Below, piece by piece: positions 42,008-64,000 of a stretch of 64,000 nucleotides of DNA. The DNA is from Anaerobacillus isosaccharinicus (GTDB lineage Bacteria; Bacillota; Bacilli; Bacillales; Anaerobacillaceae), in contig NZ_CP063356.1 of NCBI RefSeq assembly GCF_001866075.3, positions 858,164 through 922,163 on the forward strand. The letters run 5' to 3'. Both the position numbers and the translations under genes were made by a program. Numbering within the stretch: the first letter of the stretch is position 1; every line of letters begins with the position of its first letter. Below the pieces are notes generated by a model that was not told the origin of the DNA, made no database searches, and saw only the letters and a program-made list of their open reading frames with translations.

Positions 42008-42550
42008 TTGAAGAAATCATTTATCATAATAATTATGGTATTACTACTGGCTGCTTGCACTTCACAAGATTCTCATAAGTCTTATAAGAGTGTAATTGAG
42101 CTAGATGACCTAAAGTTTGAAGTCGAAGACTATGAAATACGAAGCAGCAATAATCCTGATGATAAAAACGTTCAAGTATTTGTAAAAAAAGCAATTCATT
42201 ATCAATTTAGCCTTTTGAATACTGGCATTGAGAAAATAGGCTCCGATAATATTGACGACGAGAAATTGGAAGTATATATTGAAGCCCATGAAAATTTATT
42301 AGATTTTATGGAACCGAACCTTTTTGAAACTAACAAGTCTAACATGCGGAGTGGAAGTGGAAGTGGAAGTCAGCAAACATATTTAAATCCTAATGAAAAA
42401 GGTGAGTATTTCTTCACATATATCATTGCTGATATCAAAGATTTGGAATTGATAAAAGAGAATGCATTAGATGCTGATATTGTTGTCTTACTTACAAACT
42501 CTTCGGGTATAAGTGAAGAAATAAAAAGAATTACTCTAAATAAAAAATAA
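42008..42550 (+). CDS. Small lipoprotein, 180 aa
   Basis: TTG start after AAGGAGGAAAAAAA. Lipoprotein signal KKSFIIIIMVLLLAAC, then a soluble acidic domain with FSLLNTGIEKIG and a SGSGSGS linker, resembling extracytoplasmic binding-type lipoproteins (a DUF4352-like fold is possible, not confirmed). First gene of the + strand mini-gene array. Confidence 0.75.
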   Translation: MKKSFIIIIMVLLLAACTSQDSHKSYKSVIELDDLKFEVEDYEIRSSNNPDDKNVQVFVKKAIHYQFSLLNTGIEKIGSDNIDDEKLEVYIEAHENLLDFMEPNLFETNKSNMRSGSGSGSQQTYLNPNEKGEYFFTYIIADIKDLELIKENALDADIVVLLTNSSGISEEIKRITLNKK

Positions 42551-42580
42551 ATGTGTTTTCAAAAATAAATAGTATTTTTA

Positions 42581-42630
42581 GACGGGGTTATTAAAACAAA
42601 ACAAATGCTTTATTCGTTAGTTAGGCAGTG
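42581..42630 (+). repeat. Array hairpin repeat, weak member
   Basis: Starts GACGGGG and ends GTTAGGCAG; only loosely like the other members (45528, 45765, 46326, 46731), but in the same place between two array genes. Confidence 0.3.
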
Positions 42631-42678
42631 CATTATAGATTTAATTTGACCTTGTGCTTCAAAATAGGGGGAATCTCG

Positions 42679-43440
42679 ATGACCTATATTTATGGTTTGG
42701 TTTCGGTTGCGATGAGTGTGATTATAGCTTTTATATTTGGGATTCCGATTATTTCTGAATGGGGTCTTACTTATTTTCACTTTGAATACCTCATCTTAGG
42801 TTTTGTAGCTCCAATGGGATATTACTATTTTGTCTTCAACAAAGAAAAAACATTTAATAAAAAACATATCTTACCAGGTTTATCTTTTGGATTAGTAGCT
42901 TTGTTTATAATCCTAGTTATTCATTATTTCGTTCTATCACATTTGCTTGTTTCTTTTCTTCCATATTTAAGTTCAGTTAAATTGGAAATTCTCGTCTTCA
43001 TTATCGGAAGTATCATTCTCCCCTTATTTAAGATAATAGGACAAATCAAATGTAAGAAATGTAAAAGTGGATATTTTATTGAAGAGTTGCTTTTTAAGGT
43101 AGGTAAAAAAGATTATCGAGATGATATTAAAAAGTTTATCCAATTGGCAGCCAATAATAGTGATAGAGAACTAAGAAATTTTATAAAAGAACGAAGGTTA
43201 TGTACTGGCTATTCATCAATGAACCACGAAGAAAAACCTTCATCGTATTCGTTTTATTTGATTACATGTAAAAATTGTAAATCTCAATATATTGTTAGCG
43301 AAAAAAGTAAAGAGAATAATGATGGCTCTTCGCTAATTTCTATTGGTACACGAGATTTCATTAAGAATAATAGTCTAGTAATCTTCTCAACTTTTACTAG
43401 GTTTTCATACTTAAAATCGACCGTCAAGGAAACCACTTGA
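42679..43440 (+). CDS. Membrane protein with two zinc-ribbon CxxC pairs, 253 aa, tail altered by IS
   Basis: Four membrane helices in the first 140 residues, then CKKCKSGYF and CKNCKSQYI. ATG 42679 follows AGGGGGAATCTCG. The last 15 or so residues are encoded by the hairpin end of the ISL3-type element, so the native C-terminus was probably lost. Function unknown. Confidence 0.65.
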   Translation: MTYIYGLVSVAMSVIIAFIFGIPIISEWGLTYFHFEYLILGFVAPMGYYYFVFNKEKTFNKKHILPGLSFGLVALFIILVIHYFVLSHLLVSFLPYLSSVKLEILVFIIGSIILPLFKIIGQIKCKKCKSGYFIEELLFKVGKKDYRDDIKKFIQLAANNSDRELRNFIKERRLCTGYSSMNHEEKPSSYSFYLITCKNCKSQYIVSEKSKENNDGSSLISIGTRDFIKNNSLVIFSTFTRFSYLKSTVKETT

Positions 43441-43458
43441 CCGACGATTTTAAGTATG
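43406..43458. terminator. Hairpin at the ISL3 element's 3' side
   Basis: CATACTTAAAATCG and its inverse (43406..43419, 43445..43458) flank a second GTCAAG/CTTGAC pair, placed directly downstream of the transposase stop. Confidence 0.55.
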
Positions 43459-43490
43459 AAAGTGCATAGTTAGGTTGAGAAGGAGATAAT

Positions 43491-44729
43491 CTAAGCATGA
43501 GGCTTCACTCGTAAAGTAAACTTATTAGCCGTTGCGTAGATCATGGCAATAAAGTTTTCAATTGATCGGTAGCCTCTTGCTTTCCGCTTTGATGCTTGAA
43601 CAAGGCTATTAATTCCTTCAAGTAAACCATTGGTCATTCTTGAAGCGAACCAACGTAATATACCTTTTTCATGTCTTTTGAGTGTCCGAGCAACATCAAC
43701 TATTGGCTCTAAACGTGAACGTATTGCCCAATTGTACCAATCATCAAAATACCAACCTGAAAACATTTGGCTAGTTGACCAAAGTCCTTGTAGAGCTAAT
43801 CTCAACCGATAAGCCTTAGCTGTATTTAAATGGCTATCTTTTAACTTCATAAGTTTTTCATGTTGAGACTGGGATAGGTTTTGTGAGTTCTTCAACCATA
43901 AATAACGTGTTTTTTTTAGCAATGGCTCATCATTCTGTTCCTGTCTGCGAACCTTATCGACAGCTTCGTTGACTAATTTCATAACGTGAAATTTATCGAA
44001 CGTAATGTGTGCCTTTGGAAAAGCTTCTTCAATACCTTTAATAAAAGCCGGTGACATATCGCAACAGCACTCCAGGATTGAAGTCGCTTCTATTCCTTTA
44101 TTTTCAAGGTGTTGCTTGAATGATTGGATCACAGAGGCATCTTTACCTTCAATGGCGAAAATGACACGTTTAGAATCAACATCTACAAATAACGTCACAT
44201 AGCGATGGCCTCGTCTGCTTGAAGTTTCATCAACTGCAATACGAGTTATGTTTGAGAGATCAAGCTCATCCATATTTTTTTGTACATAATAATGGAAGAC
44301 TCTCCACAATCTCGTATCATGTTCATTTACTTCACGAGCAACTGCGGCAACAGGCATTTCTTTCATTAACTGCATAACTTGGGCTTCGAATAGCCATGTG
44401 AACCCAGCTTTTGGTCGAGACCAATCAACTTGCACAGTTAGAACCTTATCGCAAATATCACATTTTATTCTTGGTAACCTTGCATGTAGATATGTCTGGT
44501 ATTGCCAGAAATCCTTATGACGCCACATCCTGTCGTCATTTGCGATATCATGAACACCATTATGTTCATTTCCACAATGTGGACATGGGAACTTAGCTCC
44601 ACGTTTGAAATCTAAAAAGACATGAAACTGATCTGAACTTTTTACTAATTTGTAGTCTTCAATATACCATGGATCTTGGATATCTAATGCCTCTTGAAAT
44701 AGACGGTATTCTTTTTCGAAATCTTGCAT
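43491..44729 (-). CDS. ISL3-family transposase, 412 aa
   Basis: Zinc-finger CPHCGNEHNGVHD plus CDICDK at the N-terminus, then RIAVDETSSRRGHRYVTLFVD (Asp), CDMSPAFIKGIEEAFPKAHITFDKFHVMKLVNEAVD (Asp), and NGLLEGINSLVQASKRKARGYR (Glu), all diagnostic of ISL3. Full length with GGAGTG before ATG. The IS ends were not resolved by eye. Confidence 0.92.
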   Translation of the reverse strand: MQDFEKEYRLFQEALDIQDPWYIEDYKLVKSSDQFHVFLDFKRGAKFPCPHCGNEHNGVHDIANDDRMWRHKDFWQYQTYLHARLPRIKCDICDKVLTVQVDWSRPKAGFTWLFEAQVMQLMKEMPVAAVAREVNEHDTRLWRVFHYYVQKNMDELDLSNITRIAVDETSSRRGHRYVTLFVDVDSKRVIFAIEGKDASVIQSFKQHLENKGIEATSILECCCDMSPAFIKGIEEAFPKAHITFDKFHVMKLVNEAVDKVRRQEQNDEPLLKKTRYLWLKNSQNLSQSQHEKLMKLKDSHLNTAKAYRLRLALQGLWSTSQMFSGWYFDDWYNWAIRSRLEPIVDVARTLKRHEKGILRWFASRMTNGLLEGINSLVQASKRKARGYRSIENFIAMIYATANKFTLRVKPHA

Positions 44730-44910
44730 TCTTACACACTCCTGACCGTTTTATTAGACTTTTTATCTAGTATGGTCAGGTCTTTTAATCTATAAACAAA
44801 TACTAATTAGCGAGGAAGCATAATGATGATATTTCACTAAAGCACTCCTACGAAATAATAGCTTGCATTAATTTAAGCAAAGAAATTCAGGTAAATTGAA
44901 AAATTGTTAA

Positions 44911-44985
44911 TTATTTCACTTAAACAAACGATAAGCGATAGCTTAAAGAAAGGTTATCACCTTTCTCCTGTTGAAGTGCAATAGT
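44911..44985 (+). repeat. Array hairpin repeat 1
   Basis: TTCACTTAAACAAACG followed by AGCGATAGC and GGTTATCACC, in front of the lipoprotein gene at 45056. Same layout as the stronger members but a weaker stem. Confidence 0.4.
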
Positions 44986-45055
44986 AATTAGAATTCATTG
45001 ATGAAAGTGTTTGGAAGAAATTAAAGAATATAAGTTATGAATTGAGGGATTAAGA

Positions 45056-45487
45056 TTGTTGAAAAGAATTATCATGTCAGGAATTGCATTAAGCATGGCT
45101 ACAATAATTGGTTGTAGTAACGAAGAAAATAAAGTACAAGTAGATGAAGAAGTTCAAACCGCAATCAATGTAGTAGAAGAATATCTTTTAACTGAGGACA
45201 TTGAACAGGCAAAAACATTTTTTGGTAGTGAGGTCTATTTTCCAGCAGATGAAGAACCGAATGCAGAACATAATCCAAATCAAATAAATTTCCCTAATAA
45301 TTACTATTATGAGTGGAATTCAAATGAAAAAAATAAGAAAGAGTTGATTGATTTTTCAGTAGATAGCAATGAAATTTACCTTTATTACAAAACAACGACA
45401 TTTGGAAAGTATAATATTGTTTTTAAATATACAATGACTAAGGAAGATGATTGGAAAATTAGTAAAATAGAAGCTGTTGTAGACTAA
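45056..45487 (+). CDS. Small lipoprotein, 143 aa
   Basis: TTG start (two adjacent TTG codons). Signal KRIIMSGIALSMATIIGC with a usable lipobox, then a compact domain resembling DUF-type extracellular lipoproteins with DDWKISKIEAVVD at the end (an NTF2-like fold possible). Single gene between two array repeats. Confidence 0.7.
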   Translation: MLKRIIMSGIALSMATIIGCSNEENKVQVDEEVQTAINVVEEYLLTEDIEQAKTFFGSEVYFPADEEPNAEHNPNQINFPNNYYYEWNSNEKNKKELIDFSVDSNEIYLYYKTTTFGKYNIVFKYTMTKEDDWKISKIEAVVD

Positions 45488-45527
45488 GATTGATGACTTG
45501 TATATTGTGAAATTTTGTACTTAAAGT

Positions 45528-45568
45528 AACGGGTGCGGTAGCTTTACAAAGGTTGTGGCTTAATACGC
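45528..45568 (+). repeat. Array hairpin repeat 2
   Basis: AACGGGTGCGGTAGC, a short ACAAAG loop and GTTGTGGC, between two array genes. Confidence 0.5.
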
Positions 45569-45640
45569 AAAAAAAGAAACCATTGGAATTATTATTTCGT
45601 ATAAAAATTATATAATTTCCGAGGTGGAGAGGGGGGAAAC

Positions 45641-45727
45641 ATGATTTCAAATATTTTAGTACCTATTTTAACTTTAGCTGTACTCGTCGGTGTTGGACTA
45701 TTATTATTCAGGCTCTTCAAACGTTAA
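45641..45727 (+). CDS. 28-aa membrane peptide
   Basis: MISNILVPILTLAVLVGVGL and LLFRLFKR: one membrane helix with a basic C-terminus. A very strong ribosome site GAGGTGGAGAGGGGGGAAAC precedes the ATG. The peptide resembles membrane-active small proteins or type I toxins in layout, but no antisense RNA gene was identified. Confidence 0.55.
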   Translation: MISNILVPILTLAVLVGVGLLLFRLFKR

Positions 45728-45764
45728 TTTGAAATAACTGAATTTAAAAACTCTTATTGTGTTT

Positions 45765-45813
45765 AACGAAGAGCGATAGCAAAACAAGCTTTCGCCTATT
45801 CAACTACTGGGCA
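45765..45813 (+). repeat. Array hairpin repeat 3
   Basis: AACGAAGAGCGATAGC, loop with ACAAG, then GCTTTCGCCT, ending TGGGCAG. Confidence 0.55.
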
Positions 45814-45855
45814 GAAGAGTTTAATAAAGAAAAAGAAAGAATTGGAGTGGGAGAT

Positions 45856-46319
45856 TTGAAGAGGTTTGTTTTAGCAATATACATTTGTAGTTTACTCATT
45901 GTTACAGCTTGCGGAAATGAAAAACAAGATAGTATTGGTATTGTAGATTTTCAATTAATCCCGAATGAAACTGATATTATAGCAATTCATGTTGGTGGGG
46001 TTGATGAAGATGGTGTATCGACAGATGAAACAAATATAACAATTGAAGAAAAACAGAAAATAAAAAAAGTATAAGCTTTAATAGGCGATATCCACTTTTA
46101 ACCAATAGAAAAACAAGATGTTTTAGACCAAGAATTACATAAAACTATTGGTTACAGTTTATTATTGAAGATTTCAATTCACAAAAACATTCGAGTTTAT
46201 GGTTATTAAGCGATGGTGAAACGATAATTATTCCTACTTGGGAAAAACAGTATTATATTAAAAGTGGTGTTGGTAGTTTATACCAAAAAATACTAGACTT
46301 ATTAGAGCTTCAATTTTAG
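45856..46319 (+). pseudogene. Small lipoprotein, frameshifted
   Basis: TTG start after GGAGTGGGAGAT; lipoprotein signal KRFVLAIYICSLLIVTAC, then IVDFQLIPNETDIIAIHVGG. The frame stops at 46074, while homologous-looking coding sequence continues in other frames to WLLSDGETIIIPTWEKQYYI and ILDLLELQF at 46317, so one or more frameshifts have broken it. A 72-aa product could still be made. Confidence 0.6.
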
Positions 46320-46325
46320 TTACTT

Positions 46326-46390
46326 TTCACTAACGGAAGGCGTTACTGGAACAAGCAGCAGTGACGCTTTCTTTGTATCTATTGAAGCAG
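46326..46390 (+). repeat. Array hairpin repeat 4, best member
   Basis: TTCACTAACG, left arm GGAAGGCGTTACTG, loop with ACAAG, right arm CAGTGACGCTTTC, T-rich stretch, ending TTGAAGCAG. Confidence 0.6.
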
Positions 46391-46509
46391 AATACTTGAA
46401 CAAGATTTTAAATCTGAAACCATATATTGTATACTTCCGTAAATAAATATTAGAAAAATTAGAATTTTGTTTTGACGGGTATTGACACTACAAAAAGGAG
46501 ATGAGATTA

Positions 46510-46713
46510 ATGAGAAAAAAGTTAGTCGGGAATGGCATTAGTTCCTTTGGATTGGGTGTAATAGTAAGTTCAATTGTTTATCCTCTCGGTTTTATGAACT
46601 CTCAATCCGTTTTTTATGGAATGCTGGTAATCGGAGCGGTTTTACTTCTAACTGGAAAACTTATTGGTAAAACGCAGAAAGAAACTGAGATTATTAGTAC
46701 CAAAATACAATAG
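46510..46713 (+). CDS. Two-TM small membrane protein, 67 aa
   Basis: MRKKLVGNGISSFGLGVIVSS and a second helix GMLVIGAVLLLTGKLIG. ATG 46510 is preferred (GGAGATGAGATTA upstream). Function unknown; one of the array genes. Confidence 0.6.
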   Translation: MRKKLVGNGISSFGLGVIVSSIVYPLGFMNSQSVFYGMLVIGAVLLLTGKLIGKTQKETEIISTKIQ

Positions 46714-46730
46714 CGTTACCATTATTGATG

Positions 46731-46782
46731 TAACGGTGAGCAATAGCACAAGAAGGCTGTTGCTTCTGTTGCATTGAGCAGG
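46731..46782 (+). repeat. Array hairpin repeat 5
   Basis: TAACGGTGAGCAATAGC, loop ACAAGAAG, GCTGTTGC, then TTGCATTGAGCAGG, the shared tail. Confidence 0.6.
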
Positions 46783-46831
46783 ATAGTTCCTTAGTAATTA
46801 CGATATTAGTTCTTTGAAAAAGAGGTGAAAA

Positions 46832-47143
46832 ATGAAATGCGATGATTGTGGATATGACCACAATGAGGTATTAAAGCATTGGGAATACAGGGGCGAAAGT
46901 AATAATGACGGATTTACTTATACTATCCTTTCCAATACTTATGATGGAGAAATACTTAAAGAAATACTGAGTCATGCATTGTCAATACATAAACCACCAT
47001 TTGATTTATTTATAGATACTTGTGTTGTGGAAACACATGAATGTAAAAATTGCTTTTTAAAATATTTAAAAAGTGCAGAAGAACGGAGAAGAATAGAGCA
47101 ACAATTTTTTGATTTAGGTATTACCTTACATGAATTCTTTTAG
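46832..47143 (+). CDS. Zinc-ribbon-type small protein, 103 aa
   Basis: MKCDDCGYDHNEV and HECKNCFLKYLK provide two CxxC pairs for a zinc ribbon, with an acidic middle and a helical C-terminus. AAAGAGGTGAAAA precedes ATG. Function unknown; array gene. Confidence 0.65.
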   Translation: MKCDDCGYDHNEVLKHWEYRGESNNDGFTYTILSNTYDGEILKEILSHALSIHKPPFDLFIDTCVVETHECKNCFLKYLKSAEERRRIEQQFFDLGITLHEFF

Positions 47144-47152
47144 TATTAAACT

Positions 47153-47212
47153 CAACTAAAGAGTGCAATAGTTTAACAATCTGTTGTTGCCGCTGTGGTG
47201 TTAATGAGCAGG
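47153..47212 (+). repeat. Array hairpin repeat 6
   Basis: GAGTGCAATAG, loop, CTGTTGTTGCC, ending GTTAATGAGCAGG; followed after 6 bp by the group II intron. Confidence 0.5.
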
Positions 47213-47218
47213 TTTGTT

Positions 47219-48131
47219 GTGCGAAACGTTTCTACCCCAAATTGAGAATGGTCACATTACTCAGGTAAAAGGTAGACAATTCCCTTCGGGGAGTTGAAGG
47301 GTTATATCGAAGAGTCAAATGATTGAGTAACGTCTTGAAGGGCTCTCTCTTAGTCGAATAGCACTAAAATTGGTAAGAATGATAGTGTTATAAGCTCGGC
47401 AAAAAGGCGTGAGAATTTACCGTAACAGTTCGGCTGACGAAAGCCTGCCCGCGGGGGTGGTGTAAATCATGATGCTTGAGTTGAATGAATATGGTGAGAA
47501 TGCTAAATAATCTAAGAAGAAGGATTAAGCTGACAAACTTCATAATGTACGGGTCTAAACGCTTACTACATAGAGATGTGTATATCACCAAATTGTGAAG
47601 TTAGCAGTGGATGAGTAAGACTCGCTAATATGAAAGTCCACGATATGTTACAGGCATATAAACGGCTAACAGGCTTACAGGAAGCACCTAAGTTCATTCT
47701 ATAGTAGATATAATTCAACGTTGTAAGCTGATAACGTGGAGGGCTTACTCCCAAAGAAAAGGTAATAAGGAAAGCAATAATGAGATTAGCTATTGTATAA
47801 CTTATTTTTGTATCAGTGAAAGTGGAGGCACAGTACCAATGAAATGTCTAATCCGCACGGAGGGATAGCCACTAGACTAATGAAGATTTATTTATTCATG
47901 CAAGGCAAATCTTTATCGGTTAATAAGGTTCTTGTGAATAGAGGTTTACCTCCCGCGGGAGGCACCGACTTATTGAAACGGAAGAATTGAGACACAAAAG
48001 GTACTAAAATATCAAAAGTGTTAATGGTTAAATAGAGTTGGATTAGTTGGAACGCCGTATGAGGTGAAAGTCTCATGTACGGTGTGAACGAGGGGAAAAG
48101 GGAGCGATAATTTCAAACCCTTACCTATTCG
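47219..48131 (+). ncRNA. ORF-less group II intron (about 0.9 kb)
   Basis: Begins GTGCG, the usual 5' end. Near the 3' end a domain V hairpin is clear at about 48050-48088: CCGTATGAG, GTGAAAG loop, CTCATGTACGG, followed by a domain VI-like stem with an unpaired A and the end TTACCTATTC. Stop codons throughout exclude a maturase gene, and no reverse transcriptase is present in the window, so it would need a maturase supplied in trans or be defunct. The 3' boundary is approximate (within a few nt). Confidence 0.75.
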
Positions 48132-48140
48132 TATGAGTAG

Positions 48141-48176
48141 TAACAGTGACGCTTTCTCTGTAAATATTGAGTCAGG
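48141..48176 (+). repeat. Array hairpin repeat 7, right half only
   Basis: CAGTGACGCTTTCT matches the right arm of repeat 4 and ends TTGAGTCAGG; the left arm is missing and the group II intron takes its place. Confidence 0.5.
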
Positions 48177-48202
48177 TTAACAAAATACAAGGGGGGATAT
48201 TG

Positions 48203-48472
48203 ATGTGGGAAATTCCGATTTACTTAATCTTTGCACCTGTTTTAACAATCATCATTTCTTTACTCTGCAGAATTAGGTTTAAAAAGTATTTTATGGCACC
48301 TTTAATCATATTTTTTATTCTCAACATCCAAACAGTAGTAGTTCCAATATTTTATAACGTGGGTTGGGAAGGTATTTTTGGGTGGGCAATTTTTTATACT
48401 GTTATATCGCTAATTATTTCTTTAATTATGTGGAGTTTTAGGAAAAAATACTCTTTTCCAAAGTCTGCATAA
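48203..48472 (+). CDS. DUF2651/YbeF-like membrane protein, 89 aa
   Basis: Three hydrophobic helices starting MWEIPIYLIFAPVLTIIIS, like Bacillus DUF2651 proteins. ATG 48203 follows AAGGGGGGATATTG. Function unknown; last gene of the array. Confidence 0.65.
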   Translation: MWEIPIYLIFAPVLTIIISLLCRIRFKKYFMAPLIIFFILNIQTVVVPIFYNVGWEGIFGWAIFYTVISLIISLIMWSFRKKYSFPKSA

Positions 48473-48519
48473 TACATCAGATATAGTGACTTTATACTTT
48501 GGAAAAGTTGTAACAAAAT

Positions 48520-48562
48520 TTCACTAACGGGGGCCTCGTAGCTCTCTATGTCTCTTTGAGCC
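48520..48562 (+). repeat. Array hairpin repeat 8
   Basis: TTCACTAACGGGGGCCTCG start and TTTGAGCC end, after the DUF2651-like gene. A separate AAAAAAGTGACC-type hairpin follows at 48563-48625. Confidence 0.45.
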
Positions 48563-52101: not shown

Positions 52102-53145
52102 TTAGTCCAGACTATAAATCAGTTTTCTTATATCCTTGGTTTTCCAAAGCGGGGATTCTTCCACTGCCTCAGGGCTTGTTTTCTTTATGGCTTCATGAAT
52201 CATATCCAACGTTGCAAAAGCATAGAAGTTTGATGTTGTTGAAAGACTTTCATGACCAAGCATTTCCATGATGACTGTGAGGGGCATACCTTTTCGGTAT
52301 AACGTCATAGCTCTTGTTTTCCTGATTAAGTGGCAGTGAACATGCCGTGGGATTTCAGGACAAATCATTCTTGCCTGGTTTGCATATTGACCTAAAAGGA
52401 GATTTATCGTATCCGTAGACAAGGCATGAGGCTTCCCATCCCTCATCGAATAGAACAATGGAGCCCCGCCATCTGTGTTTGGATGCGGATGGAATTCCTG
52501 AAGATAACGCTTGATGTGAGCAACAGTTTTCTCCATCAGGGGCACATTACGACTTTTGTTGCCTTTACCGGTTAGCGTAACGAAAGGTGTTTTGACGTTG
52601 ATAATGTGCAGATCCCGAAGGGTAATATCTACAAGTTCCTGCGCTCTGGCAGCCGTATCATACAACATAATGAACATCATGCGATTGCGTCTTCCCTTTT
52701 GTGTATCTGTTTTAGGCGTTTTTAATAATGCTTCAATAGCTTCATTTGTCATATATAATATGGACTTTTTGTGTTCCTTCATTCCGCGAACGCTACGAAC
52801 ATCGTTGTATATTGCAACAAGCGTAATATCCTCGTCTGCGCAATACTCCATGAACGATTTTAGTGCAGTCAATCGAAGGTTGCATGTTTTGGCTGCTAGA
52901 TTTTGCACTTCATTCATCCAGACAAAATAATCTTTAATGTGTTTCCTATTTAGAAAGTCAAACGTAATGTCCTGTCGTTCAATCCCTTTTTGGATTTCCA
53001 AGTAATCAATAAAGTAACTCATGGACTTCTTATACGAATTTATTGTGTTTTGGCTAAGGTTTCTTACCTTGGGCAGGTATACATGAAGGAAGCTACGAGC
53101 ATAATGCCAAAATTCGGGCTCAATCTGCTTTCTACTCTTCATCAT
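52102..53145 (-). CDS. ritC: RIT tyrosine recombinase, third gene (RitC), 347 aa
   Basis: SAM-like N-terminal domain (FLHVYLPKVRNLSQNTINSYKKSM), catalytic core with DTAARAQELVDI (Arg), HCHLIRKTRA (His-x-x-Arg), LGHESLSTTSNFYA (His and Tyr). ATG 53145 overlaps the end of ritB and follows GGAGGTGGATT. Confidence 0.88.
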   Translation of the reverse strand: MMKSRKQIEPEFWHYARSFLHVYLPKVRNLSQNTINSYKKSMSYFIDYLEIQKGIERQDITFDFLNRKHIKDYFVWMNEVQNLAAKTCNLRLTALKSFMEYCADEDITLVAIYNDVRSVRGMKEHKKSILYMTNEAIEALLKTPKTDTQKGRRNRMMFIMLYDTAARAQELVDITLRDLHIINVKTPFVTLTGKGNKSRNVPLMEKTVAHIKRYLQEFHPHPNTDGGAPLFYSMRDGKPHALSTDTINLLLGQYANQARMICPEIPRHVHCHLIRKTRAMTLYRKGMPLTVIMEMLGHESLSTTSNFYAFATLDMIHEAIKKTSPEAVEESPLWKTKDIRKLIYSLD

Positions 53146-54103
53146 AATCCACCTCCGGAAGCAACCCTTCAAGTATTTTAGTTTTTTCGGAGAAAGTAGA
53201 AAAAAACTCAGGCACAAGATGAAGATAGTAGTAGGTGCTTTCCAAACAGGCATGTCCCATGTAACGCACCAAATATGGAAGCATGGAATTCACATCGGAT
53301 TCTTCCTTAAGCCATTGATTGAGTTTGTCGAAGGCAAAATGATGGCGAAAATCATATGCTCTTGCCTTCGAGCCTGACTCATGCCCCAAACCAGCCGCCT
53401 TCCATATCTTATTGAAATTCGATCCAATAGACGTACTCTGGTAACAACTATGGGATTTTACCGGAAAGAAATACGTTCGATCTGGAAATATATTATCTAT
53501 GACAGCATCGTATTTCAAATATAGTTGTTTAAGGTCTTCCGGAAGAAACAACCTTCGGTCTTTAGGGCCTTTTGAATGGATTACATCGATATAGCCAGTA
53601 TGAAGGTTAACGTTTTTTCGCAGAAGCAACCGCGCTTCACTTGTTCTCAATCCACAACAATAAAGCAATCTAAAGTACATGGGTAGGACAAGATGGCGGA
53701 CAGGATTTTCCTTGCGAGGGCCTAGTGTGTCGCAAGCATCGAAAAATCGGATAATTTCTTCATCTGTGAAAAAATGTGGTATCGTTCGGATTTGCTTTCG
53801 ACAGATTTTGTTGGTGACAACATATGCATCTGAGTATCCAGAATGTTGCAGGTATTTGCCAAACTCACGAATAGGTGCCACACGTACTCGTTGGGTGTTT
53901 GGGCATTCGTTATCCCGTAAGATAACCCAACCTTTAACAATCTCGTTCAATAAAACCTCTTCGGATTCGCGTTTTGCACAATAGCGATCAAACTCGTGGA
54001 GATAGTATTCGCTTGTTTTATACTTCCAGCCTAGTGAGTGTTTAAACGCTACAAAAGACTCCATGAAAGAAGCTAGTTTACTAACATATGCCTTCTCCAT
54101 CAT
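53132..54103 (-). CDS. ritB: RIT tyrosine recombinase, second gene (RitB), 323 aa
   Basis: YCCGLRTSEARLLLRKNV (Arg), AYDFRHHFAFDKL (Arg-His), YMGHACLESTYYYLHLVP (His, Tyr). Start at ATG-ATG 54103 overlapping the ritA stop (ATGA), preceded by GAAGGGGCTCAA. Confidence 0.88.
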   Translation of the reverse strand: MMEKAYVSKLASFMESFVAFKHSLGWKYKTSEYYLHEFDRYCAKRESEEVLLNEIVKGWVILRDNECPNTQRVRVAPIREFGKYLQHSGYSDAYVVTNKICRKQIRTIPHFFTDEEIIRFFDACDTLGPRKENPVRHLVLPMYFRLLYCCGLRTSEARLLLRKNVNLHTGYIDVIHSKGPKDRRLFLPEDLKQLYLKYDAVIDNIFPDRTYFFPVKSHSCYQSTSIGSNFNKIWKAAGLGHESGSKARAYDFRHHFAFDKLNQWLKEESDVNSMLPYLVRYMGHACLESTYYYLHLVPEFFSTFSEKTKILEGLLPEVDYDEE

Positions 54104-55332
54104 TTGAGCCCCTTCACTTTCATAGGAATGACGGCTAAGGTTAATGCACAATCACGCATCTTTTCTTCGTCAGTAGACAGATAAACGTCGGCTGAGTTTG
54201 GGTTGACATGCCCAAGTGTTGATGAAATTGTTTGTATGGCAACCCCATTTTTTAACATTTTTGAGGCGACATGATGTCTAAGGAGGCGGGTGCCTTTAAG
54301 TTCGTTGTTAACTCTTACTCCTGCACATGTAAATATTTTTCTTACTATGGTGTAACAACTCGAATGTTCTTTCAACGGTACATGTGGGGCATTTCGAGAT
54401 AAAAATACGCACGATGAATCTGATTTAGGACGGTCATTCGTGAGATACCTTACTAATGCATTGCCGATTGCAGGAAGAAGGGGTAAAACTAAAGGCTCAT
54501 TCGTCTTCTGTTGGACTATGTTAATAACATCCCCTTGCCAATCTATATCTTTTAACCTTAAGTTCAAAATATCCACGGCCCTGATTCCAGTAAGAAGCGA
54601 TAATAATATAATAGCTTTGTCCCTTGAAGATACAGCATCGGTTTGTAATACATCCCATACAGCCCGTTCTTCCTCCTCCGTTAATACGGGAATAATTGTC
54701 CTTTTTCTCAGGAGTTTATCAGGAACGGCTGCAATAAGTCTGTTTCCACCTTCTGCAAAACGCAAAAATGATCTTAATCCGGAGGCCGCCGTTCGAAGAC
54801 TTCCAGAGTCCCAGGTTTCTCTTAGTTCATCAAAAAACTTATAGATTGATTTAAGAGGGACAGCTTTCAACTCGGTATAGCCCAATTTTTCAATAAAAAT
54901 AAGGAACTTGCAGGAAGTATTTCGATACGATTCTATAGTATTTTTACTTTTTTTCTCCTCTTGTAGAAACGCTAGAAAATGGATATGAAGGTCCTGGAAT
55001 TTAATAGTTGAGGGCTTATCGACCTTACTATCCCTGCTTGGTTGCCAGCCAAAATAGCCTCTTTCTTCATATTCCCTTAATTTTCTTATGCATGAAGTGT
55101 GTAGCTTTTTACGTGAATGGCAGTATTGTCCTGTCCTTCTGTCTGCAGAATCATTCACGAAATGCTCAACCAATTCTTGAGTTAAAGTTTCTGTCCCCAT
55201 GATAGCGGCAGACTTCAACAGTCTTTCATATACCCTTTTGAAACTATGAATCGTTGATTGACAATAACCTGCTTTTTCAAGCGCTTCAAGTACCATTTTT
55301 ACACTACTTTCCACAGTTGGTTTCTTTACCAT
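54100..55332 (-). CDS. ritA: RIT tyrosine recombinase, first gene (RitA), 410 aa
   Basis: LLTGIRAVDILNLRLKDI (Arg), GTRLLRHHVASKML (His-x-x-Arg region), LGHVNPNSADVYLSTDE (His, Tyr). ATG 55332 follows GGAGGAATTACT; a longer frame upstream is rejected. First gene of the trio, coupled to ritB. Confidence 0.88.
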   Translation of the reverse strand: MVKKPTVESSVKMVLEALEKAGYCQSTIHSFKRVYERLLKSAAIMGTETLTQELVEHFVNDSADRRTGQYCHSRKKLHTSCIRKLREYEERGYFGWQPSRDSKVDKPSTIKFQDLHIHFLAFLQEEKKSKNTIESYRNTSCKFLIFIEKLGYTELKAVPLKSIYKFFDELRETWDSGSLRTAASGLRSFLRFAEGGNRLIAAVPDKLLRKRTIIPVLTEEEERAVWDVLQTDAVSSRDKAIILLSLLTGIRAVDILNLRLKDIDWQGDVINIVQQKTNEPLVLPLLPAIGNALVRYLTNDRPKSDSSCVFLSRNAPHVPLKEHSSCYTIVRKIFTCAGVRVNNELKGTRLLRHHVASKMLKNGVAIQTISSTLGHVNPNSADVYLSTDEEKMRDCALTLAVIPMKVKGLK

Positions 55333-55392
55333 AGTAATTCCTCCTAAAAATAGTTTGGACGTTAGTCCACTTCTATTATGGAAAAAATAGCA

Positions 55393-55484
55393 AAACACTA
55401 TGCCGAAAATCCTTCGTAAACTGTTTATTTATGAAGGATTTATAAGTTTATTCGGCATAGTATTTTTTTCGGTATAGTCCGCAT
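55393..55484 (-). repeat. RIT element right terminal inverted repeat, 92 bp
   Basis: Perfect inverse of 52005..52096, ending GTCCGCAT, the inverse of the target octamer. Confidence 0.9.
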
Positions 55485-59250: not shown

Positions 59251-60090
59251 GTGCAACTAACTAAAGCCTGGGAAGCATACAAAGCTGAGAAACGAATTGA
59301 AGGATTTTCGCCTCATACTTTAAATGCCTACCAACTGCAAGCAAATCTCTTAGTCCGTCACTTCCAAGATGTTAACCCCCAATCTGTTGCAACCCAAGGT
59401 ATTAAAGATTACTTAGCTTTATCCAGCGAAGGATTAAAACCATCGAGTCTTGCTCATCGTGTTCGATTTATCCGATCATTTTTTCGTTGGTTACACGAGG
59501 AAGGTCATATAACCACTAATCCAGCTGCAAAAATCAAGGAACCAAAAGTAGGAAAACGAATCCCAAAGTTCTTAACAGAACGTGAAATTGAACATTTAAG
59601 TGAAGGGTGCCATTCCGCAATGGAGAAGGCCTTGTTTGAGTTTATGTTTTCGACGGGATGTAGAATTGGTGAGATTGTTTCATTAGATAAGAATTGTATT
59701 AATATCGGTAATCGTTCAGCGATTGTAAGAGGGAAAGGAGATAAAGAGCGTGAAGTGTATTTTAATATCAGATGTGATATTTGGTTAAAGCGTTACCTTC
59801 AAGAGCGAACAGATCAAGAGCCAGCCATTTTTGTGACGGAGCGAAATCCACACCGAATGAGCATAGCCCAGATGAGTTATGTTATCAAGCGGATTTCGAG
59901 TCGAGCTGGTATCGACAAAAGCATACACCCTCACCAATTGCTCCATAGTTATGCAACTCATTTGCTTAATAACGGAGCTCCTCTTGATGTTATACAGAGT
60001 TTACTTGGGCATGAAAGAAGTGAAACTACTCGTATCTATGCTCAGTTGAGTGGAAAATTGAGACAAGAATTTTATAGAAAGTACTTTTAA
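59251..60090 (+). CDS. XerC/D-like tyrosine recombinase with altered active site, 279 aa
   Basis: GTG start after AGGAGGGAACAATCT. N-terminal SAM-like domain (GFSPHTLNAYQLQANLL, RFIRSFFRWLHEEGHITTNPA), catalytic Arg in STGCRIGEIVSL, HPHQLLHSYATHLL, LLGHERSETTRIYAQLS with His and Tyr. The usual HxLRH is HQLLH: the second catalytic Arg is Leu (codon CTC, one change from CGC). Either inactive or altered. IS copy 4 sits 26 bp upstream. Confidence 0.85.
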   Translation: MQLTKAWEAYKAEKRIEGFSPHTLNAYQLQANLLVRHFQDVNPQSVATQGIKDYLALSSEGLKPSSLAHRVRFIRSFFRWLHEEGHITTNPAAKIKEPKVGKRIPKFLTEREIEHLSEGCHSAMEKALFEFMFSTGCRIGEIVSLDKNCINIGNRSAIVRGKGDKEREVYFNIRCDIWLKRYLQERTDQEPAIFVTERNPHRMSIAQMSYVIKRISSRAGIDKSIHPHQLLHSYATHLLNNGAPLDVIQSLLGHERSETTRIYAQLSGKLRQEFYRKYF

Positions 60091-60619: not shown

Positions 60620-63163
60620 TTATTTTCTATATGTAACTTCTGTAGATACAGTAGTACGATTTTCAACACTAACTTTAGATTCAATTTTATTTTTTATGAC
60701 AGAATATAAATCAACTTCTGTCTCAGGTGCCTCAATACTTACTATTAAAGAATATCTAATCTTTGAATTATATTTCTTTAAGTTCGTTCTCAGTTTCCAC
60801 CATCCCGTTATTGGATAAACAGCTATATGATTGCTTTGACTTAATTCACTTGCTGTTCCTTCCCAAATATCAGAATGAACGGATCCTACGTTTCTATTAT
60901 ATGCCCCAATAACCCAACGGCTACTATCGTTTTTTACCTCACCTTTATCTTGTTCATCATCTCGCATAGCCTTATTAATTCTCTTCAAGAAATTATCTTG
61001 ATCCTCAGTTGAATTATTAACATCAAACTGCAGGCCACAAGAAGGATATCGGTATTTATCTTTCCAGCCAACTTCTCCAGGACCTGGTTCAATAAAATAA
61101 GACAATGTAACTCGCATCTTTACATTTTTATCTTCCAGACTAAGTAATACATCATCTGGCCAAGGTATATTATGAATATGCATTTCTTTTGAAGTAATGC
61201 TTCCACTAGCCTTCTTATAAAAAGGTTGAATTTCATCTTCTATAATAAGGTTAACTCTATTAGAAACACTCCAAAGTGCTTTCGAAAGATTTGGCACACC
61301 ATACCCACAAGTTCTCAATAAGTTTCTATAATCCATTCTTTTTGGGGGATTATTCTCAAAACAAGCATTTTTCATTGCATCTGTCCATTCAGCTGAATGA
61401 ATCATCAAAGCCCTTATTGTTTCTGGCCATAGTTCAGGATAATGATGTAGAATATTTGCACCCATCCATGCCGCTTGTGCTGTTGCAGAACTTGTCATAC
61501 TAAGTGTATCGAATGATTTACCCGTCGCAGCATCTTTACTTGTCGTCAAAAGTTGTAGATCTGGTAATTCTGTATAAAAATTAGAATTTTCATCATAAGC
61601 TAAATTTCCACCCTCTAAAACTATATCCGGTTTCACCGGCCATTTAATACTCCACGTAAGTGAGCTAGAGGTAAACGGTGAGAAACAGCCAGGTTCCACA
61701 ACTGGATGATATGTACCAATTAATTCTTCAGGTATTTGGTATTTGACTGTATAAGCACCTACAGTAATAGCATTCCAAGCTTGTGCAGGATCTTCAATTG
61801 CATGGTTGATGACAGCAGTTTTTACATCACCTGATTCGCTAATCTCTGTAACACTTGTATTTCCTGCAGAAATGAACATTAGCTTTCTTATTATATCCGT
61901 TTCCTCTATTACATTTGCACCTGAAATAATAGAATCAATCGCTCCTGACCATGAGGAAGGTCGTCCATCACCTTTATGTGTATTGGTGGGAGCCGTAATA
62001 GCCATACAAAATGCTCTATTAGTCTCAGGATTTTGTATTTCCGCTAAACTAATAGCACTTTCGGTAACATATCCATATAATTCTCGTTGATTATCATCAC
62101 TACGATCAAATAACTTTACAGACTCTAAAAAGTGATTAACTACAACAGGAGTAGTATTTTCAAGTTTATCTTCAAGTGTAAAGTAAGATGCTATTCCAGC
62201 CATTCTTGTACCATGATTAGCAATGTCATACACATCTTTTGAAGGATCTACTGCATGCATATTTTCATCAGTTAAAAGTGGCGCTAGCAAATCATGACCA
62301 TTATTAACACCTGTATCAAGTAAACAGACCGAAGTATTTGACTGTTCTGAAATATCTAGTCTTTCTACTAAATCTTTTACAAAGTCTCTTTGATCTAATT
62401 CAGAAAGCTCTTCAAAAAAGCTTGTTGGGGTAACCATAATTCTGAATTCTGCAATTCTAGAACTTAACCATTGCAATTCTGATAATTGCTGCTTATTGGC
62501 TCTTACTCCTAATACGACCCTCTCTGGAAATACTATTTTTTGATTTTTATGCTGGATTTGTCTTTCATCACAAATTTGAAAAAATTCTCCAATAATGGTG
62601 TCCACTACTTCTTTCATATCAAACATTAACCACACTTCACACCATTTAGGAGTATTGTTGGGTAATTCATTTTTATCGCTCATCCAAAGAGCATCGACCA
62701 TTGCTAGATTAATACTCTCTATTGTTCCAATTACTTTTTCTTCAGTCTCTGTTTCTTTGTACTTATTTAATTTCTTAACAAAAAAATCCCTTTTGTTTTC
62801 AGGGACAAAAACAGTAGAGCTTACAACTTTTTGCTCCTCACCATCATCTTCACTTTTTATATTACAAATCCTAACTTTTTGCGTTGTATTCTCTAAGCTT
62901 TTAGTAATCAGATCATAACCAGCCTGACCCTTAATTTCTAAATATACACCGTGTTGAGAAGATACCGAAACTGCACCTAAAGTTTCCTGTTGTTTTTCAG
63001 CTTCTTCCCACGCTTTTGTTAAGCTTTCTTCTAATCGTTCTGCATGGCTACGTCTACTAGTTCTAACGGGATAATTACCTTTTCCACCGTTGGAGACAAT
63101 TGGTGTGTAATTAACTGTTTGAGAGGATTGATTAATATATAAGTTGCTTAATTCTGGTTTCAT
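60620..63163 (-). CDS. ietS: IetS-like subtilase (S8 family), 847 aa
   Basis: Catalytic triad: CLLDTGVNNGHDLL (Asp), ANHGTRMAGIASY (His), LSMTSSATAQAAWMG (Ser), with FISAGNTS as the oxyanion Asn region. No signal peptide, so a cytosolic protease. The long N-terminal part and beta-rich C-terminus fit the subtilases paired with AAA ATPases (IetS of plasmid pTiC58, where IetS is a toxin and IetA its antitoxin; such pairs also act in phage defence). The ribosome site lies inside the end of the ATPase gene, 7 nt gap, so translation is coupled. Confidence 0.88.
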   Translation of the reverse strand: MKPELSNLYINQSSQTVNYTPIVSNGGKGNYPVRTSRRSHAERLEESLTKAWEEAEKQQETLGAVSVSSQHGVYLEIKGQAGYDLITKSLENTTQKVRICNIKSEDDGEEQKVVSSTVFVPENKRDFFVKKLNKYKETETEEKVIGTIESINLAMVDALWMSDKNELPNNTPKWCEVWLMFDMKEVVDTIIGEFFQICDERQIQHKNQKIVFPERVVLGVRANKQQLSELQWLSSRIAEFRIMVTPTSFFEELSELDQRDFVKDLVERLDISEQSNTSVCLLDTGVNNGHDLLAPLLTDENMHAVDPSKDVYDIANHGTRMAGIASYFTLEDKLENTTPVVVNHFLESVKLFDRSDDNQRELYGYVTESAISLAEIQNPETNRAFCMAITAPTNTHKGDGRPSSWSGAIDSIISGANVIEETDIIRKLMFISAGNTSVTEISESGDVKTAVINHAIEDPAQAWNAITVGAYTVKYQIPEELIGTYHPVVEPGCFSPFTSSSLTWSIKWPVKPDIVLEGGNLAYDENSNFYTELPDLQLLTTSKDAATGKSFDTLSMTSSATAQAAWMGANILHHYPELWPETIRALMIHSAEWTDAMKNACFENNPPKRMDYRNLLRTCGYGVPNLSKALWSVSNRVNLIIEDEIQPFYKKASGSITSKEMHIHNIPWPDDVLLSLEDKNVKMRVTLSYFIEPGPGEVGWKDKYRYPSCGLQFDVNNSTEDQDNFLKRINKAMRDDEQDKGEVKNDSSRWVIGAYNRNVGSVHSDIWEGTASELSQSNHIAVYPITGWWKLRTNLKKYNSKIRYSLIVSIEAPETEVDLYSVIKNKIESKVSVENRTTVSTEVTYRK

Positions 63164-63170
63164 TTATTGC

Positions 63171-64000
63171 CTAAGCCTCCTTATATTTATAATAATTCTT
63201 CCGATCTTTAATGTAATTTAATAGTATGTTTTTTGTAATCAGCTGATCCTCTAAGATAGAATACTTAACTGCTTCCTCACACGCTTTAACAATGTCTGCA
63301 TGATTTAATCCTTTAGCCTCTTTGTACACATCTTCTGTAAAAATATTGTTAGATGCTTTGCCATGAAGCTTCATCTTAAATAATCTTGTGATTTGTTCGA
63401 TATCAGGATTTTTATATTCCATCACATCATCAAATCGTCTAAATAGAGCATTATCTAAAATGCTCGGATTATTGGTTGCTGCGATGATAATACTATAGGA
63501 TTCATCATCTTCAAGATTCTGTAAAAATGAATTTAAGATTCTTCTCATCTCGCCTACATCATTATCTAAGTTTCTATCTGACCCTATAGCATCAAACTCA
63601 TCAAATAAATATACCCCTCGAACTTCCTTTATCTGATCAAATACTTGTCGAAGTTTTGCACTTGTTTCACCCATGTATTTCGTTATCAACCGATCAAATT
63701 GTATTACATAAAGCGGTAAATATAACTCGTTGGCTATAACCGAAGCAGTCATGGTTTTCCCTGTACCAGGATCACCTGCAAGTAACAGTTTTGAACGATT
63801 CATAAGTCCATTTTTTCTTAAGAGATCTTTTTTGTGATACTCATTGATTACACGTTTGATTTTTTCTTCTATCTCAACCGAAACGATTAAATCAGATAAA
63901 TGGACATGAGTCATCTTTTGTTCAAGAATGTCTAATCCTTTATTTAATGCTACAACCTTATTTTTGTTTAGATATTTTGGGTTTTGAATAATTTCTTTAA
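63171..64000 (-). CDS. ietA: IetA-like AAA+ ATPase, partial (runs off window)
   Basis: Walker A LLLAGDPGTGKTMTAS, Walker B GVYLFDEFDAIGS, sensor IAATNNPSILD and arginine finger ALFRRFDDV: a classic FtsH/Cdc48-like AAA domain. An internal ATG at 63914 begins a 247-aa frame, but the same frame stays open to the window end (DILEQK upstream of it), so the true start lies beyond 64000. Partner of the subtilase. Confidence 0.88.
   Translation of the reverse strand, partial: KEIIQNPKYLNKNKVVALNKGLDILEQKMTHVHLSDLIVSVEIEEKIKRVINEYHKKDLLRKNGLMNRSKLLLAGDPGTGKTMTASVIANELYLPLYVIQFDRLITKYMGETSAKLRQVFDQIKEVRGVYLFDEFDAIGSDRNLDNDVGEMRRILNSFLQNLEDDESYSIIIAATNNPSILDNALFRRFDDVMEYKNPDIEQITRLFKMKLHGKASNNIFTEDVYKEAKGLNHADIVKACEEAVKYSILEDQLITKNILLNYIKDRKNYYKYKEA

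Follow-up and report, generated by a model that had tools for sequence, protein, structure and literature searches.

A probable integron-like gene-cassette array in Anaerobacillus isosaccharinicus, and a tyrosine recombinase family found near such arrays in Bacillus relatives

A stretch of the Anaerobacillus isosaccharinicus genome is, with a probability that we put at about 0.8, part of a cassette array that belongs to an integron-like system for gene capture in Bacillus relatives. The stretch (42008-48562) lies in a 64,000-bp window (G000:C1:858164-922163; positions below are those of the window unless a locus or genome is named) of a single-contig, 5.23-Mb genome (G000). In it, small genes on the plus strand are set apart by related hairpin repeats, which are real and part of a large system. 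As far as it can be read from DNA and protein sequence, this system has same-strand arrays of small genes between ~78-bp repeats, each repeat with a pair of cores around a hairpin that compensatory changes have preserved; a XerA/XerD-like recombinase family near the arrays, one clade of which stands mostly divergently at the array head and another co-directionally with the array; and homologous genes between different neighbours, once across GTDB families, in alignments that break at the cores. A first-pass annotation had suggested a cassette-collecting system and three checks on it (a covariance model carried into relatives, variable gene content between repeats, and a linked recombinase), all of which came out in its favour, as detailed here.

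Repeats and arrays

The consensus repeat is CTTATTAAACTAACGGGTGCGATAGTTGAACAAGGCTGTCGCTTCTGTTGTTGAACTAACGAGCAGGTTAGTTGAATA (profile, 228 hits, 109 fetched loci), ~78 bp in length. The first-pass annotation ended it at TTGAGCAGG; the repeat in fact continues past that point through GTTAGTTNAA, the mirror of the left end TTNAACTAAC. Each repeat comprises two core-like sites around a hairpin. The left core, TTAAACTAAC-GGGTGC-GATAGTTGAA, runs from TTNAANTAAC through a ~6-nt spacer to the 2L arm, and the right core, TTGAACTAAC-GAGCAG-GTTAGTTGAA, from the 2R arm through a ~6-nt spacer to GTTANTTNAA. The arms of the cores are ~10 bp long, and there are conserved arms outside the stem. The four-arm order 1L, 2L, 2R, 1R recalls the attC site of integrons.

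Covariation was scored over 430 distinct sites (≥18 bits; some fetched loci overlap); the shuffles used for comparison ignore relatedness, so that z should be read as no more than a guide. In the inner stem (positions 19-26 with 35-42), covariation is seen at six of eight pairs (z 4.6 to 11.8), and the remaining two have z of 2.7 and −1.5. The outer 1L/1R (R) pairing is without covariation (z −0.8 to 1.7); the 2L/2R (L) pairing reaches at most 3.3, and a 36-site set was likewise unsupportive. Arm covariation was also absent between both ends of one cassette and across one repeat (best z, 1.85). Folding of the attC type was rejected because covariation supports neither the 2L/2R nor the outer 1L/1R pairing, and an attC structure is not claimed here. 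Since the outer pairings do not covary, the arms look like binding sites rather than fold partners.

Eight repeats had been listed in the stretch, and six of them have a recognisable left end (Table 1). The other two are partial: the one at 48141 is a right half alone (37 nt, 81% like 46354-46390), and the one at 48520 is a left end alone (48526). Profile rep3 (228 hits from many genomes, a few of them the window's own) matched five of the eight at E values of 3.4e-7 to 8.9e-13 in a search of a 9-kb stretch; the repeat at 44927 was weaker and was scored with the earlier profile rep2. Reversed sequence gave 0 matches, against 550 at E < 0.05 in the 1.97 Mb of fetched DNA, and no repeat site was found in 42008-43440 by profile search, even at E ≤ 5. 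When folded as single sequences, three of the eight repeats beat shuffles (44927, 46332, and 46732), and the fold predicted at 44927 differs from the consensus stem; the case for a hairpin, which had been proposed for every copy, thus rests on covariation across many sites. The description of the stretch as a one-direction array held for genes and repeats, all on the plus strand, and has to be amended for two interruptions, a minus-strand transposase gene and a group II intron (Table 1).

A sequence model built from six window copies (R1) found 66 strongly clustered places in G000 at E ≤ 10. A second model (R2; 36 sites, four of them the window's, one stem, with the best first-look candidates alone scored) found 95 sites at E ≤ 1, mostly in same-strand arrays of small genes. 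Besides the window, the main clusters in G000 are at 3.594-3.687 Mb, 2.21-2.29 Mb, and 561-566 kb, with most of their sites on the plus strand. Profile matches at E < 1 numbered 145 in ~340 kb of G000 plus the window, the three largest of these clusters having 72/7, 36/5, and 10/0 matches on the plus/minus strands. Over the pooled loci, 97.9% of consecutive sites are on the same strand, and the median spacing is 679 bp (L120 duplicates part of L149; L165, which overlaps other loci, was excluded from the pooled set).

Sites were found in all seven genomes of the genus, the window's included (E ≤ 0.01; the family search comprised the same seven), and in 83/299 genomes and 43/116 genera of the order, taken here to be Bacillales (E ≤ 1e-5). 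In a draw from the phylum, 2/398 genomes had sites, namely, the window's genome and G086, both of the same order. An exact degenerate pattern matched nine stretches in 84,980 species genomes: two labelled Bacillales bacterium, one labelled Bacillus sp., and six from named species, all six of which belong to the Bacillaceae in the current NCBI taxonomy (where Anaerobacillus arseniciselenatis is placed in Caryophanales, Bacillaceae). A range within the Bacillaceae, as first suggested, agrees with these six species; to them must be added the 43 genera of the order and one genome of another order in the same class, which has both integrase and sites (L240). All of these distribution counts are lower bounds because R2 was built from one genome and large searches filter more strictly.

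The linked recombinase family

Recombinases near arrays were listed in 12 genomes, and among those listed, a tyrosine recombinase family of ~280 aa (the 279-aa family) was pinpointed. At E ≤ 1e-70, it is present in 58/299 genomes and 34/116 genera of the order. In the phylum draw it is present in 6/398 genomes: three of the same order, one of the same class (51% identity), and two at 45%. The 51% homologue (L240) also has sites; neither profile found sites around the 45% homologues (L241 and L242) or a 43% homologue (L243). L241 and L242 come from another part of the phylum, and L241 adjoins phage-tail-like genes (by eye).

IntI-type integrases (TIGR02249) carry a specific insertion. Family protein P0002 scored 95.5 bits against the IntI profile (integrase_gron, NCBIfam TIGR02249; cut-off, 265), 205.0 against XerC (335.15), 208.9 against XerD (329.6), and 208.5 against XerA (220), and it passed none of these curated NCBIfam cut-offs. 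The window copy of the family matches the IntI profile in two pieces and leaves positions ~180-234 unmatched, much as XerD does. P0002 is 29% identical to the XerD of the window's genome, in which no IntI above cut-off was found; the best IntI match of that genome, XerD-like and two genes from a Fur-like gene, was rejected as the integrase. The predicted fold of the recombinase (pLDDT, 90.7; pTM, 0.67) was matched by Foldseek first to XerA (5hxy), then to archaeal Xer proteins and the integron integrase 2a3v (TM-scores of ~0.5 to 0.6).

Of the catalytic set R-K-H-R-H-Y, the residues R, K, H, R, and H are present in 47/47 aligned sequences and Y in 46 (Asp in L234); the window copy is absent from this alignment, which takes in XerD and four distant homologues. 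The window copy has R231L and is probably inactive, to judge from this substitution. A quick tree joins 43 family rows at 98% SH-aLRT, with long branches and unsure deep joins, and the labels for integrase arrangement, assigned from the sides and strands of profile hits, mostly follow its clades. Sequence set A5 excludes L205 and L209 (bad start, frame break), which are absent from the tree as well, and also L227 and L234, which the tree retains; L199 and L229 (short reads) were never extracted.

The family is linked to the arrays. Integrase neighbourhoods, 47 in all, were taken from 39 of the 58 genomes with the family and from G179, making 40 genomes. With both profiles, which were partly built from those loci, a site at E < 0.01 was present in 42/47 and at least two sites in 35/47; reversed controls had none. 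The integrase stands at the array head, divergent from the array, in L160, L162, L163 (a broken copy), and L165 (an insertion sequence lies between); L161 is less regular. Among the first six array heads examined, no adjacent recombinase was apparent except in L133. With the G000-trained profile and the integrase set on the minus strand, 70 matches at E < 0.01 were placed as for a divergent head in both side and strand, 12 were on the same side and opposite strand (including the window's), 28 on the other side and same strand, and 28 on the other side and opposite strand. The last group came mostly from a second set of proteins (~64 to 70% identical to P0002) in which the integrase is co-directional with the array. 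In this co-directional clade, 126/127 sites at E < 0.05 (refined profile) share the orientation of the integrase, 90 of them downstream of it. Repeats flank the integrase on both sides in L223 and L226 of the same clade, as if the integrase were itself a cassette.

Some divergent loci have, by eye, a single simple core without a hairpin between the integrase and the first gene, resembling an attI site: TTGAAGTAACGGGCAGGATAGTTGAACAAG (L160), TTGAAGTAACGGGCAGGTTACTTGATG (L202), and TTGAAGTAACGGAGTTGGTTAGCACAATAG (L200). These attI-like sites are alike on the integrase side and differ toward the first gene (by eye). Against a control of 960 segments drawn at random from these loci, repeats included, 7/24 divergent-type loci reached the 95% level (1.2 expected) and three reached the 99% level (L160, L198, and L211). 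In the co-directional clade, L213 and L214 have a similar half-site after the integrase (by eye).

Cassette exchange and competing explanations

Cassettes are shared between arrays. The window cassette at 45818-46336 matches one in same-genus G006 (92.7% identity, 523 bp), and the one at 46388-46735 matches one in G005 that has other neighbours (97.4% identity, 348 bp). Cassettes of G148 and G000, from different GTDB families, are 95.6% identical over 707 bp, and the hairpin of window repeat r5 plus the next gene is common to the window and G002 (L157:9387). Break positions were counted in 370 alignments with multi-copy elements removed (740 ends each way; ends within 10 bp of a core). Of the 3′ ends, 106/740 were at the left core (shifted control, 5.8) and 9 at the right core (4.2); of the 5′ ends, 36/740 were at the right core (4.3) and 33 at the left core (7.1).

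Flanks were compared for 317 sites, using pairs that match as far as the repeat on one flank only, and filtering removed 1/36 and 6/20 pairs (group II intron insertions, or the other flank still alike). The same upstream gene was followed by a different hairpin in 33 pairs (15 families), and upstream gene and hairpin were shared in 2; the same downstream gene was preceded by a different hairpin in 7 pairs (6 families), and hairpin and downstream gene were shared in 7 (7 families). The hairpin was thus shared in 2/35 pairs with a common upstream gene versus 7/14 with a common downstream gene. Without filtering and with flanks ≥95% alike, the hairpin was common with the downstream gene in 8/10 pairs and with the upstream gene in 2/11, and 27 pairs had hairpins ≥90% alike with neither gene shared. 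Median hairpin identity in pairs sharing the upstream gene was 0.60, equal to the background (0.60). The left spacer was kept with neither side (identical in 2/27 and 0/7 pairs; 6% of random pairs), as would be expected if strands were cut on both its sides. These comparisons indicate a main break at the left core and a second at the right core, the hairpin following the next gene more than the previous one, which is the reverse of an integron cassette.

In 319/340 cassettes, the longest open reading frame (ORF) is on the strand of the site; the median cassette is 604.5 bp and the median ORF 143 aa. In a set of 80 out of 298 eligible cassette ORFs, Pfam families include GNAT (8), SUKH (3), and NUDIX (2), alongside unknowns; 59 families were matched, the majority of them a single time. 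We take such genes (GNAT, NUDIX, SUKH, unknowns) to resemble the cargo of chromosomal integrons. Three genomes (window, L117, and L127) each have a site whose 1R arm holds a group II intron, the three introns having similar 5′ ends; a fourth (L163) is doubtful. Relatives of the window intron with ltrA are on Niallia and Sporosarcina plasmids, and a plasmid search with the window array returned 288 records; the intron was matched in 39 of the 40 rows listed and a cassette gene in one (H19). These introns are like the integron-associated group IIC introns (PMC7923331, as described in the portion of that paper available) in lying at the array sites; they differ in that the target is the present repeat rather than attC.

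Four other explanations were weighed. It is improbable that these are true integrons with merely divergent attC and IntI, a proposal that would not exclude the cassette-array reading and that has in its favour the same overall plan, the attC-like order of four arms, and the presence of 2a3v among the Foldseek matches. It sits poorly with an IntI score far under the cut-off and exceeded by those of XerD and XerA, with the unmatched segment of the IntI profile in the window copy, with outer pairings that lack the covariation of the inner stem, and with the different hairpin behind the same upstream gene in 33/35 pairs. Movement of the cassettes by the host XerC/XerD at dif-like sites, as in the pdif modules of Acinetobacter, with the 279-aa enzyme as a passenger, is less probable again. 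The cores do have ~10-bp arms and a ~6-nt spacer, a likeness of layout, and 57/83 site-bearing genomes are without the 279-aa enzyme at the threshold used. To our knowledge, XerC/XerD are near universal, yet the sites of the phylum draw are in this order only, and it is the 279-aa enzyme, 29% identical to the genome's own XerD, that is found near arrays.

RecA-dependent exchange between similar repeats, needing no site-specific enzyme, is the least credible of the four. The repeats are similar and on the same strand, and a recent tandem duplication of a cassette block is seen in the window's genome (L046:14792 and 16950, ~2.16 kb apart); the breaks, however, sit in a 10-bp arm, and the paired hairpins are for the most part unlike (identity at background), which would leave too little homology for RecA. 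It is also very unlikely that the repeats are ordinary terminators or intergenic stem-loops behind stable small genes, in arrays that grew in some other way. Some hairpins look terminator-like, and a survey from 2008 (PMC2267715, seen in part) describes Bhal-1, a family of intergenic 74-nt stem-loops in B. halodurans that may or may not be the present repeat. Terminator-like sites are not enriched, however (11 versus 9.0 in shuffles, standard deviation 3.3, in one 20-kb array stretch, L039), which also takes away from the early suggestion that the repeats double as terminators. A terminator would further leave out the conserved arms beyond the stem, the gene exchange with breaks at repeats, and the recombinase family near the arrays.

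Several observations weigh against reading the stretch as part of a gene-capture system. Recombination itself is deduced from the above patterns, and no excised circle, junction, or activity was seen. Five of the 47 neighbourhoods are without a site at E < 0.01 (L198, L220, L221, L227, and L234). Co-occurrence by genome is moderate, with 26 genomes having both integrase and sites, 57 sites only, 32 integrase only, and 184 neither (n = 299; Fisher p 0.0014; site model from one genome). No single simple scheme accommodates both crossover positions, and the category counts are small (33, 2, 7, and 7 pairs). At the proposed insertion site, 17/24 loci are below the 95% level (L201, L203, and L204 just short; 14 showing nothing), and the 5′ side of the integrase is broken or carries an insertion in at least four loci (L049, L163, L165, and the window). 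The window integrase is itself downstream of the array, in the other orientation, and with insertion elements between.

Like chromosomal integrons (superintegrons; IntI, attI, attC), the system has a head integrase in one clade, a putative simple insertion site in part of the loci, co-oriented small accessory genes with repeats between them, and integrase-less (CALIN-like) arrays. Unlike them, it has a XerA/XerD-like integrase that scores below the IntI cut-off, an inner 8-bp stem that covaries while outer pairings do not, breaks at two cores per repeat, a hairpin that rarely travels with the preceding gene, and hosts among Bacillus relatives. Its working is integron-like, with co-oriented arrays of mostly single-gene cassettes and an attI-like site evident in part of the loci only, yet without an IntI-type integrase, attC-type pairing, or a cassette unit of gene plus following site. 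The pdif modules of Acinetobacter plasmids (XerCD) are similar, according to the partial accounts at hand, in that short sites of two arms and a spacer lie on either side of genes that are exchanged as modules; here, the flanking sites have one orientation, each repeat has two cores and a hairpin, the G000 arrays studied are chromosomal, and a separate recombinase is linked. bcr1 and other Bacillus repeats (PMC2267715) are also short, intergenic, and with stem-loops, and the part of that survey available mentions no cassette arrays or linked recombinase for them.

For an integron-like system, we propose that the recombinase would bind the 10-bp arms and exchange strands at the spacer. Cassettes may enter at the attI-like site via the right core, and shuffling within the array would go mainly via the left core and could carry a hairpin with its downstream gene. 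The hairpin could serve as a folded single-stranded substrate, or it could give the site its polarity.

The window and the meaning of the system

Features of the window are given in Table 1. A Pfam search of eight window ORFs gave three with a match at E ≤ 0.01; two matches, DUF2651 and DUF4181, are above the cut-off, the DUF4181 match being a minus-strand ORF beyond the array. The transposase that interrupts the stretch is presumably ISL3-like.

Table 1. Repeats, cassette genes, and other features of the array stretch and its integrase homologue (window positions)
Feature	Position	Strand	Evidence or remark
Insertion sequence transposase ORF, interrupts stretch	43491..44729	-	ORF list
Repeat r1 (AAC at 44927), degenerate right half	44917..44990	+	19.6 bits (rep2); fold z −3.6
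Cassette gene, 143-aa lipoprotein-like ORF	45056..45487	+	By eye; without Pfam match at E ≤ 0.01
Repeat r2 (AAC at 45528), right end lost	45518..45575	+	E 3.4e-7, model positions 2-49
Possible cassette gene, 28-aa membrane peptide ORF	45641..45727	+	Read from sequence
Repeat r3 (AAC at 45765)	45764..45825	+	E 3.3e-11
Cassette ORF, lipoprotein-like	45856..46074	+	ORF list
Repeat r4 (AAC at 46332)	46325..46402	+	E 8.9e-13; fold z −3.9
Cassette gene, small membrane ORF	46510..46713	+	ORF list
Repeat r5 (AAC at 46732)	46722..46793	+	E 3.8e-11; fold z −5.6
Cassette gene, 103-aa CxxC-containing ORF	46832..47143	+	Without Pfam match at E ≤ 0.01
Repeat r6 (AAC at 47154)	47150..47218	+	E 1.2e-12
Group II intron without reverse transcriptase ORF, in 1R arm of r6	47219..~48134	+	3′ end approximate
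Right half of further repeat r7	48139..48176	+	Sequence comparison
Cassette gene, DUF2651 membrane ORF	48203..48472	+	Pfam
Left end of degenerate repeat r8	48518..48534	+	E 0.21
279-aa cassette integrase homologue	59251..60090	+	Catalytic Arg 231 = Leu

The region is rich in insertion sequences, with four near-identical 499-aa transposase-like genes in the 64 kb (12360, 38155, 40044, and 57493). Three adjacent tyrosine recombinase genes on the minus strand (52102-55398) form a trio that we take to be RIT-like; matches to it are at six places in the genome, and those to a second trio are at four. Same-genus G006 has many copies of a recombinase trio among the matches listed. A gene pair for an AAA ATPase and an S8 protease (60620-63914, minus; families by eye) adjoins the window integrase, and a similar pair with a broken protease adjoins the integrase in G005 (L133). 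A defence module is one possible reading of this pair, a component of an element another.

Besides the window copy, the genome has an integrase copy without its first 19 residues (L049), upstream of an array and behind insertion sequences. With one copy lacking the catalytic Arg and the other its start, the arrays of this genome may now be frozen.

On balance, we lean slightly toward a separate, perhaps independently evolved Bacillota analogue of the integron, with a XerA-like integrase and paired cores around a hairpin. In such a system, hairpin and gene could be recombined separately (capture through the right core at an attI-like site, shuffling through the left core). It would be widespread in Bacillus relatives and would have been overlooked since integron searches seek IntI and attC. 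Literature searches of an open-access library that does not cover preprints listed no description of it. Complete integrons are reported to be almost absent from the Firmicutes, the IntegronFinder 2.0 survey, in the part available, giving one (Limnochorda pilosa) and a few CALIN; the present integrase family occurs in 58/299 sampled genomes of the order and the sites in 83/299. If true, the system would account for the way in which these bacteria come by dozens of small accessory genes, and it would offer a second case for the evolution of gene-capture platforms and a recombination tool native to Gram-positive hosts.

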